Counted from the stretch's first letter, positions 22,358 to 31,647 are shown. The stretch is DNA of 64,000 nucleotides from Edaphobacter acidisoli (GCF_014642855.1 NZ_BMJB01000001.1:1612001-1676000); one strand, 5' to 3'. The notes: generated from the sequence alone by a model not told the origin. Numbers and translations are program-made.

Positions 22358-24544
22358 TTACATCTGCCGCGCCAACACCAGCGTAATATCGTCCGGCTGC
22401 TCCGCCGCGCCAATCCACGCGTCCAGCGCATGCATCACCTGCGTCGAAATCACATGCAGAGGCTGGTCCCTATAGCGCCGAATAACTTCAATCATCCGCT
22501 CTTCGCCAAACTCGCCGAAGTCATTCTCCGGCTCCGTCACCCCATCCGAATACGCAACCATAATGTCGCCCGGCTGCATCTGCACACGGCCTTCTTCATA
22601 CCGCATCCCGTCCATCAGCCCTACCACCGTCCCACCCTGGTCGAGCCTGCGCACAGCGCCGTCGCGTCCCAGCACCAGCGGCGGCAACTGTCCCGCATTC
22701 GAGTACGTCATCAACGACGACTCCACATCATAGTGCGCTAAAAACAGCGTCGCGTACTTCTCCGGCTGCGTGCTCCGGTAAAGATGCCTGTTCAGCAACG
22801 ACAGAATCCGCCCCGGCGAATGAAACAGCTCATCGCAATCACCCCCACGCCCATCGCGGCTGGACATCAGCCCATCCACTACCGACTCGCTGTACACCAG
22901 CTCCTCGCTCGCAAACCTGTACGCCCGCACCGCCGAGTGCAGCGTCGCCATCAGCAGTGCAGCCGAAATTCCCTTCCCGCTGATATCGCCAATTGCAATC
23001 CCCACACCCGTCTCGCGCCGCGCATGCCCATTGTGCGCCTCCTCGTGAAACACCAGGAAGTCGTAGTAGTCTCCGCTCACCGACCGCGCCGGCCTGCAAA
23101 CCCCATGCAGCTCCAGCGTCTTCAAATTCGAGATGTGGTGCGGAAACAGGTTCGCCTGCACCTCCTGCGCAATCGAGATCTCGTTCTGCAACCGCTCCTT
23201 TTCCTTCTGCTCTTCGATCAGCCGTTCCAGCGACTCAGCCATCTTGTTGAACGACCGGCTCAGCTCCGCAAGCTGGTCCGTACGCTCGACACCAATCCTG
23301 TGGCTCAGAGATCCTTTATCAATCTGCTGCGTCGCCTGATAAAGATCCGACACCGAAGCCGTAATCGTCTTGCTCAACCGAATCGCCATCCACAGCGCCA
23401 GCAGCTCAATCAGCGCAAACACCACGCACAGCACAATCAGGAACAACCGGATCACGCTGGTCACAATCCCGCCCAGCGATCCGCCAAACAACTGCCGGTA
23501 CAACAGCGACGGCCGCGAATCCACCTCAATCGCCACCCCATACGGCGCGCCCGTGTCCCACTCCGTCATCGCCACCGTCGAAAGAAAACGCACGCGAATG
23601 TCCGCCAGGTTCACCCCTCGGACCTCGCCGCCTCCCTCAATCGGTCCTCCCGCGCCGTGGCCCTCTTCTGCCTTCTCCAGCGTCCTCGCCCGCGACTCCC
23701 GCTTGAACCCGCCGCTCTGCGTCGTCTCGTCCGAGTTCTCAATTCTTAGCGGAAACAGCACCGCCCTGCCCAGCCCCGCGGCGACCATGTCCATCAGCGT
23801 CGAATTCACCGACATGCTGTCCACGACCGTAAACATCCTCTTGTCGTGCAGCCTTTGCTGGTTCAACGCCACCAGGTACAGCTTGCCGCCATCGATCACC
23901 ATCCCATGAAACTCGCCGCCATGCAGGTTCGCCGCCCATAGCGGCAACCCAAACGGAGTATTGCTGTCCCCATTCGTTCCCGTCGCCACGCGCGCGCCAT
24001 CCACATACGTCGTCGTCGTCGAGTGCAGCTTGAACCGCTCACCATCCGTGCCCCGCACACTCTCACTTGTCGTCGACGGCCCCGCAGCCGGCCCGGGCAA
24101 ATTCCCATTCATCACCAGTGCCAGAAAGTCCGCGCGGTGCCCATTCTCCGCGCTCATCTGTTCCACTTCGCTCTGCAACCGCGAGTCCGCCAGGTGAATC
24201 GCAAACTGTCCTGCCGCGATGTAAGCCGAGATCAACACCAGCGTCGCAAACAGCACCACCGGCGCCACGCCAATCAGCAGATACGTCACTACCAGCTTGT
24301 TCCGCAGACTCCACAGCATGTGCTTACGCACCAACTGCACCGCCAGCGCCACACCAACCACCACCAGCGCCACACCAACAAAAAACTCCACCACGCCAAA
24401 GAACTTCCCGAACTCACCCGGCAACCGGCTCAATCCCACCAGCACACAGAATTGCAACGCGAGCCAGAACGCCGCCCCCGCCAGCCCCGAAGGAATGTGC
24501 GTCCTCACCCAGTCCGCAACGCGCGCTCCTGTTCCGCCCTGCAT
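22358..24544 (-). CDS. Membrane-bound SpoIIE/PP2C-type serine phosphatase with HAMP domain
   Basis: The 728-residue signalling protein has three N-terminal membrane helices (~15-110), a large extracytoplasmic region (~110-355), another helix (~360-385), a HAMP domain (~390-440), a short coiled coil (EEQKEKERLQNEISIAQEVQ) and a C-terminal PP2C/SpoIIE phosphatase domain. The phosphatase shows metal-binding motifs GDYYDF, GDISGKG and AYSDGVTE. RsbU-like proteins of this class dephosphorylate anti-anti-sigma factors in partner-switching pathways. No partner kinase or STAS protein is encoded nearby, so its target is unknown. It starts 7 bases after the YihY gene on the same strand, suggesting cotranscription. 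Confidence 0.92.
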   Translation of the reverse strand: MQGGTGARVADWVRTHIPSGLAGAAFWLALQFCVLVGLSRLPGEFGKFFGVVEFFVGVALVVVGVALAVQLVRKHMLWSLRNKLVVTYLLIGVAPVVLFATLVLISAYIAAGQFAIHLADSRLQSEVEQMSAENGHRADFLALVMNGNLPGPAAGPSTTSESVRGTDGERFKLHSTTTTYVDGARVATGTNGDSNTPFGLPLWAANLHGGEFHGMVIDGGKLYLVALNQQRLHDKRMFTVVDSMSVNSTLMDMVAAGLGRAVLFPLRIENSDETTQSGGFKRESRARTLEKAEEGHGAGGPIEGGGEVRGVNLADIRVRFLSTVAMTEWDTGAPYGVAIEVDSRPSLLYRQLFGGSLGGIVTSVIRLFLIVLCVVFALIELLALWMAIRLSKTITASVSDLYQATQQIDKGSLSHRIGVERTDQLAELSRSFNKMAESLERLIEEQKEKERLQNEISIAQEVQANLFPHHISNLKTLELHGVCRPARSVSGDYYDFLVFHEEAHNGHARRETGVGIAIGDISGKGISAALLMATLHSAVRAYRFASEELVYSESVVDGLMSSRDGRGGDCDELFHSPGRILSLLNRHLYRSTQPEKYATLFLAHYDVESSLMTYSNAGQLPPLVLGRDGAVRRLDQGGTVVGLMDGMRYEEGRVQMQPGDIMVAYSDGVTEPENDFGEFGEERMIEVIRRYRDQPLHVISTQVMHALDAWIGAAEQPDDITLVLARQM

Positions 24545-24551
24545 CTGCCTC

Positions 24552-25487
24552 TTACTCCTCCGCCTTTGCCTGCCGCGCCAGGCGCAGCGTATACCGCGTA
24601 GCCGAAAAATGCGCTCCCGCCAACAATAGCAGCCCCGACAGAAACGCCCACATCATCAGCCCAACAGAAATATAGAACGGTCCATAAATCGACTGGAAGT
24701 CAATCCACGGCAGCGCCCATATATAGATGTGCCGCGCCAGCGCCCACAGCAGTCCCACCACAATCGCCGTCGGCAGCACCGCCCGCGCTGGCACCTTCCT
24801 GTAGGGCAAAATCCAATAAATCAAGAAGAACAGCAGGATACTCGCAAACCCTGCCGAAAATCTCAAAAACCAGAACGACATAAACCGGTAAACCAGATTC
24901 TGCGTGTGTCCAAAGAACACCCAGGACAGAATCGCCTGCTGCCCTGCCGTCGAAGCCACCGAGCCCAGCGCCAGCAAACCCACCGCAAATGCGAGTCCTA
25001 GCGAAATCCCTTGATTATGCAGATAGCTGCGGTTTTTCTTCACGCCCCAGACGTTGTTCAGCGCCACCTCCAGCGGCAAAAACACGCCCGTTGAAGTAAT
25101 CAGCAGCATCACCAGCGAAAAGACTTCAGTCCCTTTATGCGGATGCGTCAACAGTTGCATATTCCGCATCACAAAATCCTGCCCCACCGGCAGAAACGTC
25201 TTCATCATGTCGCTGACAACGATCTCCATCGTCCGCGAATGAAACACATTACGCGTAATCGAAAGCAGCAGCACAATAAACGGAAACAGCGAGAGGATCG
25301 CATTCGCCGCGACGCTGAACGCATAGGTATGCACCTCGGTCCGCATCATGTAGCGAGCCAGCGCCGCAAGCCGCGCGCCAAGCCCATCCGACGGGACAAC
25401 GGGCCGAACCTGTTCGATAGGTTTCGCCTGCGGCTCCGCGCTCTTTTGCGCAGAAGCAGCGCTCTTGTCCGAAAGATTCGACGACAT
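24552..25487 (-). CDS. YihY/BrkB-family inner-membrane protein
   Basis: The 311-residue polytopic protein has about six hydrophobic helices and YihY/BrkB family features (TYAFSVAANAILSLFPFIVL, LEVALNNVWGVKKNRSY, GLMMWAFLSGLLLLAGAHFS). The family was once misnamed RNase BN; its function remains poorly defined. The N-terminal ~40 residues are polar and cytoplasmic. It is the first gene of a two-gene unit with the SpoIIE phosphatase. The ATG has no Shine-Dalgarno, so it may be translated from a leaderless or weak start. Confidence 0.88.
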   Translation of the reverse strand: MSSNLSDKSAASAQKSAEPQAKPIEQVRPVVPSDGLGARLAALARYMMRTEVHTYAFSVAANAILSLFPFIVLLLSITRNVFHSRTMEIVVSDMMKTFLPVGQDFVMRNMQLLTHPHKGTEVFSLVMLLITSTGVFLPLEVALNNVWGVKKNRSYLHNQGISLGLAFAVGLLALGSVASTAGQQAILSWVFFGHTQNLVYRFMSFWFLRFSAGFASILLFFLIYWILPYRKVPARAVLPTAIVVGLLWALARHIYIWALPWIDFQSIYGPFYISVGLMMWAFLSGLLLLAGAHFSATRYTLRLARQAKAEE

Positions 25488-25596: not shown

Positions 25597-26916
25597 ATGA
25601 ACCACTACATCGAACGCGTCGTCGACCTCATCGAGCCCGAGTACAACAACCTCTACAACCTCACCCTCGACGAGGCCCGCGCCCTGCTCTTCAGCCAGCC
25701 CGCCGAAGCCATCCGCACCATCCACGGCTCCTTCGCCCTCCTCGCCAAATCCGGCAAGAACGTCCGCATGGTCCGCTCGCTCGACCGCCCCATGCGCTAC
25801 TTCCTCGCCAAGCGCGCAGAAGGCCCCGCACTCATCGTCGCCTCGCGCATCGACACCATCTACAACTGGCTCCGCGCCGAAGGCCTCGACTCCCAATTCC
25901 ACCCCAGCTACACCCGCATGGTGCCCGCGCACCACATCGTCGACATCCAGCTCATCGGCTGCCCCGACCCCGACCCCGTCTACACCCGCTTCTTCACACC
26001 CGTCTCCGCCGCGCTGCCCGCCGACCTCGACCACATCGGCCACGCCTACATCTCCGCCGTCGCCGAAGAGATCGCGCAGTGGCTCCAGCGCATCCCCGCC
26101 GCCGAACCCATCGGCGTCGCGTTCTCCGGAGGCATCGACAGCGGCAGCGTCTTCCTCACCACCTACCACGTCATGCGCAAGCTCGGCATGAACCCTTCAC
26201 GCCTCAAAGCCTTCACGCTCGACCTCGGCAACGGTCCCGACGTCGAGCAAGCCCGCTCCTTCCTCCAAGCCGTCGACCTCGAACTCTTCCTCGAACCCAT
26301 CGAAGCCGATGCCGCCACACTCAACGCCGCCGAGACCATCCGCATCACCGAAGACTACAAGCCCCTCGACATCGAATCCGCCACCATGGCTCTCGCTCTA
26401 TGCCGAGGCATCCGCGCCCGCTACCCCGACTGGCTGCACCTCATCGACGGCGACGGCGGCGACGAAAACCTCAAAGACTATCCCATCGAAGAAAACCCCG
26501 AGCTCACCATCACCAGCGTCATTAACAACCGAATGCTCTACCAGGAAGGCTGGGGCGTCGGCAAAATCAAACACTCGCTCACCTACTCCGGCGGACTCAG
26601 CCGCTCCTACACCCGCACCTACGCGCCCGCGCACCACTTCGGCTTCCAGGGCTTCAGTCCCTTCACGCGCTCCGAAGTCATCGCCGTAGCCGAAGCCATC
26701 CCCTTCATCGACATCACCCAATACAACGTCCCGCGCCTCTACGAACTCAAAGGCGAGATCGTCTCCCGCGGCATCGCCTCCGTCACCGGCATGAAGATGC
26801 CCGTCTTCCCCAAACGCCGCTTCCAGCACGGCGCACTCCCGGAAGACTCGATGCGTCGACGCCTCCCCTATCGCGAAGCCGAGTACCGCAAACAATTCCT
26901 CTCGCTCTACCAATGA
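25597..26916 (+). CDS. Asparagine-synthetase-like PP-loop ATPase lacking the catalytic N-terminal Cys
   Basis: The 439-residue protein has an AsnB-type synthetase domain: ATP pyrophosphatase loop SGGIDSG at 177-183 and GDGGDE at 285-290, the place of the AsnB GEGSDE motif. It should adenylate a carboxylate and pass it to a nitrogen donor. The N-terminal ~130 residues keep parts of the class II glutamine amidotransferase fold (HGSFALLAKSGKNV, ALIVASRIDTI), but residue 2 is Asn, not the essential Cys, so it cannot use glutamine in the usual way. Relatives in biosynthetic clusters make beta-lactams or amides with other amines. It starts a three-gene unit, overlapping the next gene by 4 bp. The substrate is unknown. 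Confidence 0.82.
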   Translation: MNHYIERVVDLIEPEYNNLYNLTLDEARALLFSQPAEAIRTIHGSFALLAKSGKNVRMVRSLDRPMRYFLAKRAEGPALIVASRIDTIYNWLRAEGLDSQFHPSYTRMVPAHHIVDIQLIGCPDPDPVYTRFFTPVSAALPADLDHIGHAYISAVAEEIAQWLQRIPAAEPIGVAFSGGIDSGSVFLTTYHVMRKLGMNPSRLKAFTLDLGNGPDVEQARSFLQAVDLELFLEPIEADAATLNAAETIRITEDYKPLDIESATMALALCRGIRARYPDWLHLIDGDGGDENLKDYPIEENPELTITSVINNRMLYQEGWGVGKIKHSLTYSGGLSRSYTRTYAPAHHFGFQGFSPFTRSEVIAVAEAIPFIDITQYNVPRLYELKGEIVSRGIASVTGMKMPVFPKRRFQHGALPEDSMRRRLPYREAEYRKQFLSLYQ

Positions 26917-27866
26917 GCACCTACCCCGCATCGACTGCCGCACGCGATCAATGGATCATCGCCCAACGCCCCGATCGCAACCATCTCGACCCACTACGCC
27001 CCTATGCCTTCCTCGTCGAAGACGAACGCTCCGCCGAAAACGAAATCGTCCCCGTAGCCACCATCTTCCTCACCAACCGCGAGTGCCCATTCCGCTGCGT
27101 GATGTGCGACCTCTGGAAGAACACACTCACCACAACCGTCCCTACCGGAGCCATCCCCGCACAAATCCAATACGCACTCTCGCAGCTCCCACCATCCCGC
27201 CAAATCAAGCTCTACAACGCCGGCAGCTTCTTCGACCCGCAAGCCATCCCACCCGAAGACTACGCCGCCATCGCCACGCAAACAGTCCACTTCGAGCGAG
27301 TTATCGTCGAGTGCCACCCATCGCTCGCAAATCAAAGATGCTTGCAATTCAAAAGTAACCTCACCGGCAAGCTCGAAGTAGCCATGGGCCTCGAAACCGC
27401 CCACCCCGAAGTCCTCACCCAGCTCAACAAGCGCATGACGCTCGACCAGTTCAAGCGCGCCGCAGACTTCCTCCAGCAAAACGAAATCGCCCTCCGCGTC
27501 TTCATCCTCGTCCAGCCACCATTCATGCGCGAAGAAGAATCGCTCGAATGGGCTGCCCGCTCACTCGACTTCGCCTTCAACTCCGGAGCCACCGCCGCCA
27601 CCCTCATCCCCACCCGCGCAGGCAACGGCGCAATGGAACACCTCCAAATCATCGGCCAATTTTCCCCACCAAAACTCAGCACTCTCGAAGCCGCAGCAAA
27701 CTACGGCCTCACCCTCAACCGTGGCCGAGTCTTCACCGACCTCTGGGACGCAAAGCCCACCTGCCCACACTGCGGCCCGCAACGCATCGAGCGCCTCCAC
27801 CAGATGAACCTGCACCAGACCATCCTCGCGCCGATCGAATGCTCCACGTGCGAGGGCCGCACGTGA
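26913..27866 (+). CDS. Radical SAM enzyme with C-terminal Cys pairs
   Basis: This 317-residue protein has a radical SAM cluster motif CX3CX2C (CPFRCVMC, C58, C62, C65) after a ~55-residue N-terminal extension, and a partial TIM-barrel (IKLYNAGSFFDP, LEVAMGLETAHPEVL). The end holds two Cys pairs (CPHC and CSTC) that could bind zinc or another cluster. The layout recalls the Elp3/MiaB-like group that includes archaeal RaSEA proteins, but I cannot assign a reaction. It overlaps the upstream gene by ATGA and the downstream one by GTGA, so all three are translationally coupled and probably act on one product. It would need an anaerobic or reduced cytoplasmic environment. Confidence 0.8.
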   Translation: MSTYPASTAARDQWIIAQRPDRNHLDPLRPYAFLVEDERSAENEIVPVATIFLTNRECPFRCVMCDLWKNTLTTTVPTGAIPAQIQYALSQLPPSRQIKLYNAGSFFDPQAIPPEDYAAIATQTVHFERVIVECHPSLANQRCLQFKSNLTGKLEVAMGLETAHPEVLTQLNKRMTLDQFKRAADFLQQNEIALRVFILVQPPFMREEESLEWAARSLDFAFNSGATAATLIPTRAGNGAMEHLQIIGQFSPPKLSTLEAAANYGLTLNRGRVFTDLWDAKPTCPHCGPQRIERLHQMNLHQTILAPIECSTCEGRT

Positions 27867-29413
27867 CCCGCCACTACGACATCGCCATCGCAGGCTCAGG
27901 CTTCGGAGGCTCACTCCTCAGCATGATCGCCCACCGCCTCGGCCACTCCGTCGTCCTCATCGAACGAGGCACGCACCCCCGCACAGTCATCGGCGAATCC
28001 TCCACCCCACTCACCAACCTGCTGCTCGAAGAGCTCACCACCCGCTACGATCTCCCCACCATCCGCCCGCTCAGCAAGTGGGGCACATGGCAACAAGCAC
28101 ACCCACAAATAGCCTGCGGTCTCAAGCGCGGCTTCACCTTCTACCATCACGATCTCGAAGACCCACAACCCTTCCCACCCGACCGCAGCCACCAACTCCT
28201 CGTCGCCGCCAGCCCGCACGACCGCATCGCCGACACCCACTGGTACCGCGCCGACTTCGATCACCTCCTCGTCCGCGAAGCCCAGTCCCTCGGCGTCGAC
28301 TACCTCGACGAAACCACCCTCACCAAAATCACCGAGCACGATTCAGCAATCCAATTCGAAGCCACACGCCACAACAACCCCATCACCATCTCCGCAAAGC
28401 TCCTCATCGACGCCACCGGCCCGCGCGGCCTGCTCCACCACGCGCTCAATCTGGGTGAAAAGCCGCTCCCCAACCTCCCCCACACCCAAGCCCTCTACAC
28501 CCACTTCACCGGCGCAGGCAAAATCGAACCCTCACACCAAGCCCCGCCCTATCCCGTAGACGCCGCCGCAGTCCATCACATCTTCGATGGAGGCTGGATC
28601 TGGGTCCTCCAATTCAACAACGGCATCACCAGCGCAGGCATCGCCGCCACAGACGCGCTCGCCACAAAACTCAACCTCAGCGAAGGCGCACCCGCCTGGC
28701 AACGCATCCTCACCCACATCCCCGCGCTCCAGCATCAATTCTCCGATGCAAAACCCACCCAACCCTTCCGCCACATCCCACACCTCTCCTTCCAAAGCGC
28801 AGCCATCACCGGCAAACGCTGGGCGCTTCTCCCCTCCGCCGCAGGCTTCGTCGACCCACTCCTCTCCACCGGCTTCCCACTCACCCTGACAGGCATCGAC
28901 CGCCTCGCCCGCATCCTAAATCAATCGACCGACGCTCAATCATTCGACTCACCCAGCCTCGCGCACGAACTCCAAACCTACGCCGCCGAAACCGAAGCCG
29001 ACCAACTCGCCGCCACCCGCCTCATCGCCGCGCTCTACGCCAACATGCACGACTTCCCCACCTTCAGCGCGCTCTCGCTGCTCTACTTCGCCGCCGTCAG
29101 CTACGCCGAAACCGCCCACCGTCTCAACAAGCCAGAACTCGCCCCATCCTTCCTCCTCCACACCCACCCGACCTTCGGTCCGGCGAGCAAAAGCCTCTGC
29201 GAACGCGCCCTCCACATCGCAACTCCCGCACAAGCCGCCGAGCTCCGCGAAGACATCCTCGGCGCCATCGACCCCATCAATGTAGCCAGCCTCGGCAACG
29301 CAACCCGCCGCAACTGGTATCCTGTCGATGCCAACGACCTCATCCAGGCCGCCCCCAAACTCAACGCCAGCCCGGAAGACATCGACCAACTCCTCCAACG
29401 CTGCGGCTTCTAA
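27863..29413 (+). CDS. FAD-dependent oxidoreductase of the flavin-halogenase-like family
   Basis: The predicted 516-residue protein starts at GTG 27863, overlapping the radical SAM stop; the frame is open further upstream but without protein-like sequence. Residues 5-36 form the FAD-binding fold (GSGFGG at 11-16, acidic E34). 'GESSTPLTNLLLEEL', 'ADFDHLLVREA', 'LIDATGP' and 'GFVDPLLSTGFPL' match the tryptophan-halogenase/geranylgeranyl-reductase branch. The halogenase WxWxIP motif is changed to WIWVLQ, so chlorination is uncertain; a Lys in CGLKRGFTFY could be the halogenase lysine. It may oxidise, reduce or halogenate a product of the upstream enzymes. The last ~150 residues are an unassigned helical domain. 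Confidence 0.8.
   Translation: MTRHYDIAIAGSGFGGSLLSMIAHRLGHSVVLIERGTHPRTVIGESSTPLTNLLLEELTTRYDLPTIRPLSKWGTWQQAHPQIACGLKRGFTFYHHDLEDPQPFPPDRSHQLLVAASPHDRIADTHWYRADFDHLLVREAQSLGVDYLDETTLTKITEHDSAIQFEATRHNNPITISAKLLIDATGPRGLLHHALNLGEKPLPNLPHTQALYTHFTGAGKIEPSHQAPPYPVDAAAVHHIFDGGWIWVLQFNNGITSAGIAATDALATKLNLSEGAPAWQRILTHIPALQHQFSDAKPTQPFRHIPHLSFQSAAITGKRWALLPSAAGFVDPLLSTGFPLTLTGIDRLARILNQSTDAQSFDSPSLAHELQTYAAETEADQLAATRLIAALYANMHDFPTFSALSLLYFAAVSYAETAHRLNKPELAPSFLLHTHPTFGPASKSLCERALHIATPAQAAELREDILGAIDPINVASLGNATRRNWYPVDANDLIQAAPKLNASPEDIDQLLQRCGF

Positions 29414-30411: not shown

Positions 30412-31647
<1,236 letters not shown>

Follow-up and report, generated by a model that had tools for sequence, protein, structure and literature searches.

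In the genome of Edaphobacter acidisoli, a stretch of 64,000 nucleotides (GCF_014642855.1 NZ_BMJB01000001.1:1612001-1676000; the window) carries three consecutive genes that form one functional unit: P1, encoding an asparagine synthetase (AsnB)-like amide ligase lacking the glutaminase nucleophile; P2, encoding a radical S-adenosylmethionine (SAM) enzyme; and P3, encoding a halogenase-like flavoprotein. We consider it almost certain that one pathway obligatorily unites P1 with P2 and usually includes P3 as a third member. That the trio works together had been proposed in an initial annotation of the window and is borne out by strict co-occurrence, conserved gene order, and congruent trees. The same annotation recognized no pathway with this combination, and no published description of it was found in the open-access literature; the kinds of enzymes are known, and it is the pathway, with these three subfamilies in combination, for which no description was found.

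Recurrence and inheritance of the trio

At least 546 relatives of P1 were found when 84,980 species genomes were scanned, and the best 80 loci, for which phylum placement is given, all fall in Acidobacteriota and Verrucomicrobiota. The bacteria that carry the trio inhabit soil and freshwater, and they include Silvibacterium bohemicum, Acidipila rosea, and Granulicella sp. L46. The initial annotation had pointed to Acidobacteria and Planctomycetes as places where the trio might recur; the former was correct, Verrucomicrobiota have to be added, and no Planctomycetes were present among those best 80 loci. Thirty of 297 Acidobacteriota genomes encode a P1 relative, as do 23 of 200 within the family, with identities of 71-79% within the same family and 44-67% elsewhere in the phylum, and a wide gap separates them from ordinary AsnB (E value of about 1e-4). 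Almost every Acidobacterial locus shows the genes in the order P1-P2-P3, and the same order is displayed by 58 nonidentical linked loci from the two phyla.

Strong matches to P2 (profile A2) were found in exactly the 30 of 297 Acidobacteriota genomes that hold P1, and P3 (profile A3) was found in 28 of these 30 genomes and in none of the 267 others. Likewise, among 241 Verrucomicrobiota genomes, P1 and P2 are both held by the same three, and P3 is present in 26 of 35 P1-bearing Verrucomicrobiota. P1 stands alone at its locus in 26 genomes; P2 is encoded elsewhere in 23 of them, and P3 is present in most as well, typically on a further contig. Two Acidobacterial genomes (G426 and G270) also have trio members on separate contigs. 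Unlinked homologues had been named beforehand as evidence that would speak against a joint role, and in many Verrucomicrobiota the loci are indeed scattered; because the genes nevertheless share genomes, the functional link is strengthened. Since the gene order recurs in 58 linked loci and the genes also co-occur unlinked, a chance assembly is excluded.

Mirror-tree correlations among linked trios were 0.90, 0.84, and 0.76, with none of 2,000 permutations as high; such agreement alone is compatible with plain vertical inheritance, and the identical, sporadic sets of genomes provide the stronger argument. The P1 tree requires at least three changes between Acidobacteriota and Verrucomicrobiota, which suggests that P1 was passed between the two phyla by transfer. 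P1 is also carried by metagenome-assembled genomes titled Akkermansia muciniphila (L105, L131, L135, L136, L153, L156, and L157); this label may be wrong, and the isolate codes look environmental. The strict co-occurrence across two phyla, even when the genes are unlinked, points to an unrecognized pathway in Acidobacteriota and Verrucomicrobiota, the chemistry of which has been little explored.

Table 1. Positions of the trio, its sequence motifs, the partner operon, and flanking genes (window coordinates unless stated otherwise)
Feature	Position	Strand	Description
P1	25597-26916	+	ATG start, 439 aa; AsnB/beta-lactam-synthetase-fold ATP-dependent amide ligase
P1 SGGIDS, aa 177-182	26125-26142	+	ATP/PPi loop; S177, G178, G179, D181, and S182 invariant (69 sequences)
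P1 DGDGGDE, aa 284-290	26446-26466	+	Aligns with AsnB GEGSDE; nearly invariant (69 sequences)
P1 KRRFQHG, aa 406-412	26812-26832	+	K406-H411 invariant, G412 nearly so (69 sequences)
P2	26913-27866	+	ATG start, 317 aa; RaSEA-related radical SAM protein
P2 CX3CX2C, C58/C62/C65	27084-27107	+	[4Fe-4S]/SAM motif; invariant (46 sequences)
P2 CxxC...CxxC, C284/C287/C310/C313	27762-27851	+	C-terminal; invariant or at least 90% conserved (46 sequences)
P3	27863-29413	+	GTG start, 516 aa; FAD-dependent halogenase-like protein, PltM/CtcP type
P3 Lys88 (CGLKRGF)	28124-28126	+	Invariant; aligns with catalytic Lys87 of PltM (CGIKLGF)
P3 W245-I-W247 (WIWVLQF)	28595-28603	+	WxW kept, IP of WxWxIP absent
Partner operon, E. 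acidisoli	G000:C1 about 1982839-1990874 (L263:8840-16875)	-	About 345 kb from the trio, outside the window; genes for TPR-UnbV (1180 aa), UnbV/FG-GAP (597 aa), RnfD-like (289 aa), and UnbV/FG-GAP (629 aa) proteins
Phosphatase-like gene	22358-24544		Left flank
YihY-like gene	24552-25487		Left flank
ThiF/MoeB-like gene	30412-31647	+	Adenylyltransferase with C-terminal rhodanese-like domain, read by eye; adjoins the trio

The three proteins

The stop and start codons of adjacent trio genes overlap by 4 bp (ATGA at 26913-26916 and GTGA at 27863-27866), exactly where the initial annotation had placed these overlaps, and its family calls (asparagine synthetase-like, radical SAM, and halogenase-like) hold as well, on the basis of PF00733, CX3CX2C, and PF04820, respectively. 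Across 59 linked loci, the median P2-P3 gap is -4, so the 4-bp overlap is typical there, whereas the median P1-P2 gap is +11, so the overlap is not typical at that junction.

P1 matches Asn_synthase (PF00733) at residues 165-301 with 45.5 bits (cutoff, 21), and its AlphaFold model (predicted local distance difference test [pLDDT] score, 85; predicted template modeling score, 0.89) superposes on human asparagine synthetase (Z score, 24.7; root mean square deviation [rmsd], 3.9; 382 residues aligned) and beta-lactam synthetase (Z score, 24.6; rmsd, 3.9; 373 residues aligned). A sequence search for solved homologues returned only AsnB. The SGGxDS loop, the GxGxDE motif, and the synthetase fold identify P1 as an AsnB-fold amide ligase, of which the synthetase half and ATP site are intact; K406 is probably the counterpart of the C-terminal catalytic lysine of AsnB, as judged from the KxxFxxG pattern rather than from a reliable alignment. 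At the other end, the structural match starts at P1 residue 2-3, corresponding to chain residue 37-40 of asparagine and beta-lactam synthetases, and the profile alignment to genuine Acidobacterial AsnB opens near AsnB residue 66. The start of P1 thus corresponds to AsnB residue ~36-66, there is no cysteine at position 2, and the N-terminal glutaminase domain is missing its nucleophile and initial strands. The open frame spans 447 residues, against 439 for the protein, leaving room for only ~8 codons upstream; no upstream reading frame could hold the missing N terminus. The earlier description of P1 as "Cys-less" is apt for the glutaminase nucleophile, but not literally, as C122 is invariant in the family. 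With its incomplete glutaminase domain and a score of 43.3 bits against the AsnB model TIGR01536 (cutoff, 267.1), P1 is not a glutamine-hydrolyzing AsnB and, since the N-terminal cysteine and the start of the glutaminase half are missing, is not expected to use glutamine.

P2, present in a single copy in the E. acidisoli genome, was modeled with a pLDDT score of 95.9 and has a radical SAM fold; queuine lyase (17.0), HydE, and biotin synthase (both 16.6) are tied in the first rows of the structural comparison. The radical SAM Pfam score (22.4) lies under its cutoff of 29.5; the CX3CX2C motif together with the radical SAM barrel fold places P2 in the superfamily. Its only strong NCBIfam match is RaSEA (TIGR01210; E value, 1.8e-25), and, judged by sequence, P2 is a relative of RaSEA, not a member. 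The C-terminal cysteine pairs form a possible zinc or auxiliary cluster site. No convincing solved homologue of P2 emerged from a sequence search, and a literature search on bacterial RaSEA relatives returned nothing useful. One P2 relative (L051; G066:C4:190787-191890) has an apparent in-frame insertion of ~130 bases inside the radical SAM domain. In nine Verrucomicrobiota loci (L216, L219, L222, L225, L226, L227, L230, L231, and L232), P2 adjoins a ribosomal operon, with the order in L219 being read as rpsL, rpsG, fusA, rpsJ, rplC, rplD, rplW, and P2 and the other loci sharing neighbor clusters; apart from this operon beside P2, no conserved neighbors of unlinked P2 or P3 were found in Verrucomicrobiota.

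P3 matches Trp_halogenase (PF04820) with 53.1 bits (cutoff, 21), and the solved proteins closest to it are PltM and tetracycline 7-halogenase. The flavin adenine dinucleotide (FAD)-binding GxGxxG motif (G11 and G13 at least 90% conserved) and the catalytic lysine make P3, on these sequence features, a credible candidate halogenase; in PltM, a K87A variant is inactive, showing that K87 is essential (PMC6424973). In one Acidobacteriota family (f47; L063, L064, L065, L067, L068, and L077), P3 is only 32-34% identical, and the enzyme of this lineage may act on a different substrate or catalyze a different reaction.

An operon associated with the trio in Acidobacteriota

A point missed by the initial annotation came from relatives: many Acidobacterial loci have, convergent with the trio, an operon for three UnbV_ASPIC/FG-GAP proteins and one RnfD-like membrane protein, and linkage of this partner operon to the trio was seen in other families as well (G403, G212, and G313). 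Its domains (UnbV_ASPIC and NQR2/RnfD type) were assigned by Pfam on the E. acidisoli copy. Among the 200 family members, the RnfD-like protein is encoded by 22 of 23 trio-positive versus 7 of 177 trio-negative genomes (Fisher P value of 3e-22, uncorrected for phylogeny), and the sole trio-positive member without it is a genome that is 73% complete. The seven members with the RnfD-like protein and no trio are G009, G028, G041, G084, G092, G100, and G155; UnbV genes were present too in the six loci fetched from such genomes (L264 to L269), and the partner operon may have a wider role than the trio. In Verrucomicrobiota, UnbV-type genes occur near P1 in 10 of 52 loci, whereas none of the 38 loci surrounding an unlinked P2 or P3 has such genes. 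A literature search on UnbV/RnfD cassettes returned nothing useful; these proteins gain a new context here.

Proposed pathway and alternatives

What each enzyme does, in what order and on which substrate, and how the UnbV operon contributes, we infer as follows. P1 would use ATP to activate a carboxylate as an acyl-adenylate and join it to an amine not derived from glutamine, since P1 has no working glutaminase. The 5'-deoxyadenosyl radical generated by P2 would then act on the P1 conjugate, with C-N cleavage as the leading candidate reaction, by analogy with RaSEA. P3, using reduced FAD, O2, and halide, would halogenate an aromatic, most likely phenolic, moiety of the substrate via Lys88, and in Acidobacteriota the separate UnbV/RnfD-like operon is probably devoted to that product too, possibly exporting it or carrying out a final redox step. 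We give about an even chance to the proposal that the trio constitutes a three-enzyme pathway making or tailoring one small molecule by these reactions.

Several observations weigh against this scheme. P2 scores 89.8 bits against the RaSEA cutoff of 212.15, with only part of the model matched. P3 is absent from 2 of 30 Acidobacteriota and 9 of 35 Verrucomicrobiota with P1. The partner operon was not found in the P1-bearing Verrucomicrobiota tested, with distant matches in two genomes only, and is for that reason not part of the core. Finally, WxWxIP is a motif of flavin-dependent halogenases, of which P3 lacks the IP half, and the WxW is lost as well in L065, L067, and L077 (the three members of the f47 lineage that were aligned), with GLKRGF retained.

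Because the WxWxIP motif is incomplete, and its WxW lost in one lineage, P3 might oxygenate its substrate without halogenating it. A reading that makes P3 a flavin monooxygenase or dehydrogenase, contributing with the RnfD-like and UnbV proteins to an oxidized, nonhalogenated metabolite or a redox cofactor, is the strongest competitor, although we regard it as doubtful. It would suit the match of P3 to QhpG, the flavin monooxygenase that acts in the maturation of a quinone cofactor (E value, 7.6e-20), and the association of the trio with an NQR2/RnfD-type membrane protein, but the halogenase lysine is invariant, even in the divergent lineage, and the best solved relatives of P3 are true halogenases.

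All three enzyme types occur in pathways for ribosomally synthesized and posttranslationally modified peptides (RiPPs), which raises the question of whether the trio could mature a ribosomal precursor, with P1 serving as its macrolactam or isopeptide cyclase, P2 modifying the peptide by radical SAM chemistry, and P3 halogenating it. The P1 superfamily does include lasso cyclases, and P1 weakly matches an albusnodin/ikarugamycin macrolactam cyclase model (E value, 0.008). However, no conserved sense-strand small open reading frame was found within 1.5 kb of 59 trios, a result compatible with a remote precursor, and the small frames that do recur near trios lie on the antisense strand of the neighboring UnbV gene. 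The earlier statement that no carrier protein, precursor peptide, or exporter lies beside the trio agrees with our finding no conserved one in the window. With no SPASM-type match in P2, no recognized protease or peptide exporter, and trio members unlinked in many genomes, maturation of a RiPP appears improbable. Nor do we put much weight on P2 acting on a tRNA or DNA nucleoside conjugated by P1: RaSEA is the nearest named family, queuine lyase and tRNA-modifying enzymes are among the (tied) first structural matches, and P2 adjoins the ribosomal operon in several Verrucomicrobiota, but such base modification offers no obvious place for P3, the trio is sporadic (about one-tenth of genomes), no ArcS or tRNA-guanine transglycosylase gene was recognized beside it, and P2 falls under the RaSEA cutoff.

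Relation to known systems

Within the small-molecule pathway proposed above, one of the closest parallels is ArcS-RaSEA of Euryarchaea, in which ArcS attaches lysine, RaSEA then converts preQ0-Lys in tRNA to archaeosine, and the two proteins form a complex; in archaeosine synthesis by T. kodakarensis, the donor is none of NH4+, Asn, and Gln (PMC11298593). In both systems, an enzyme that transfers nitrogen (by prediction in the case of P1) co-occurs with a radical SAM protein, P2 being nearest to RaSEA among named families, and glutamine, which is not used in T. kodakarensis, is not expected to serve P1 either. In contrast, P1 has an AsnB-type fold unrelated to ArcS, P2 is under the RaSEA cutoff, and the trio is bacterial, with a halogenase-like third member. 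By this analogy, P1-P2 could be a bacterial counterpart of ArcS-RaSEA, in which a sacrificial amine (e.g., an amino acid) would be placed on a carboxylate and the C-N bond cut to leave a primary amide, with P3 halogenating the product. We think this specific version unlikely; it would, however, explain why a glutaminase-less AsnB-like enzyme should be coupled to a radical SAM protein and, if true, would install nitrogen without glutamine or ammonia. The pairing of a glutamine-independent amide ligase with a RaSEA-related radical enzyme, of which we likewise found no published account, offers a testable model of sacrificial-amine nitrogen transfer.

Beta-lactam and carbapenam synthetases (Z scores of 24.6 and 21.5, respectively) share with P1 an AsnB-derived fold without a working glutaminase and ATP-dependent amide formation; unlike in them, the N-terminal domain of P1 is in addition shortened by its first ~35-65 residues. 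Identity is 11-19%, the trio has no lactam pathway nearby, and the common ground with beta-lactam synthetase is the fold only. PltM and CtcP resemble P3 over the first ~410 profile positions, with the catalytic lysine kept, but in P3 the WxWxIP motif is incomplete, the C-terminal ~100 residues are unmatched, and the protein is accompanied by an amide ligase and a radical SAM enzyme. Enediyne clusters hold UnbV/UnbU proteins, which recall the UnbV_ASPIC and NQR2/RnfD-type domains of the partner operon; the latter, however, has three UnbV-type proteins rather than one and other neighbors, and no enediyne polyketide synthase was seen in the flanks, to which this inspection was confined, no whole-genome search having been made.

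Surroundings of the trio

No match to P1 was found among 72,556 plasmids. A clean insertion site was sought and rejected: in the relatives examined, the right flank does not adjoin the left flank, so no empty site is definable. The ThiF/MoeB-like gene downstream of the trio is not among its recurring neighbors, and the left flank, comprising the phosphatase-like and YihY-like genes, is conserved within the genus.

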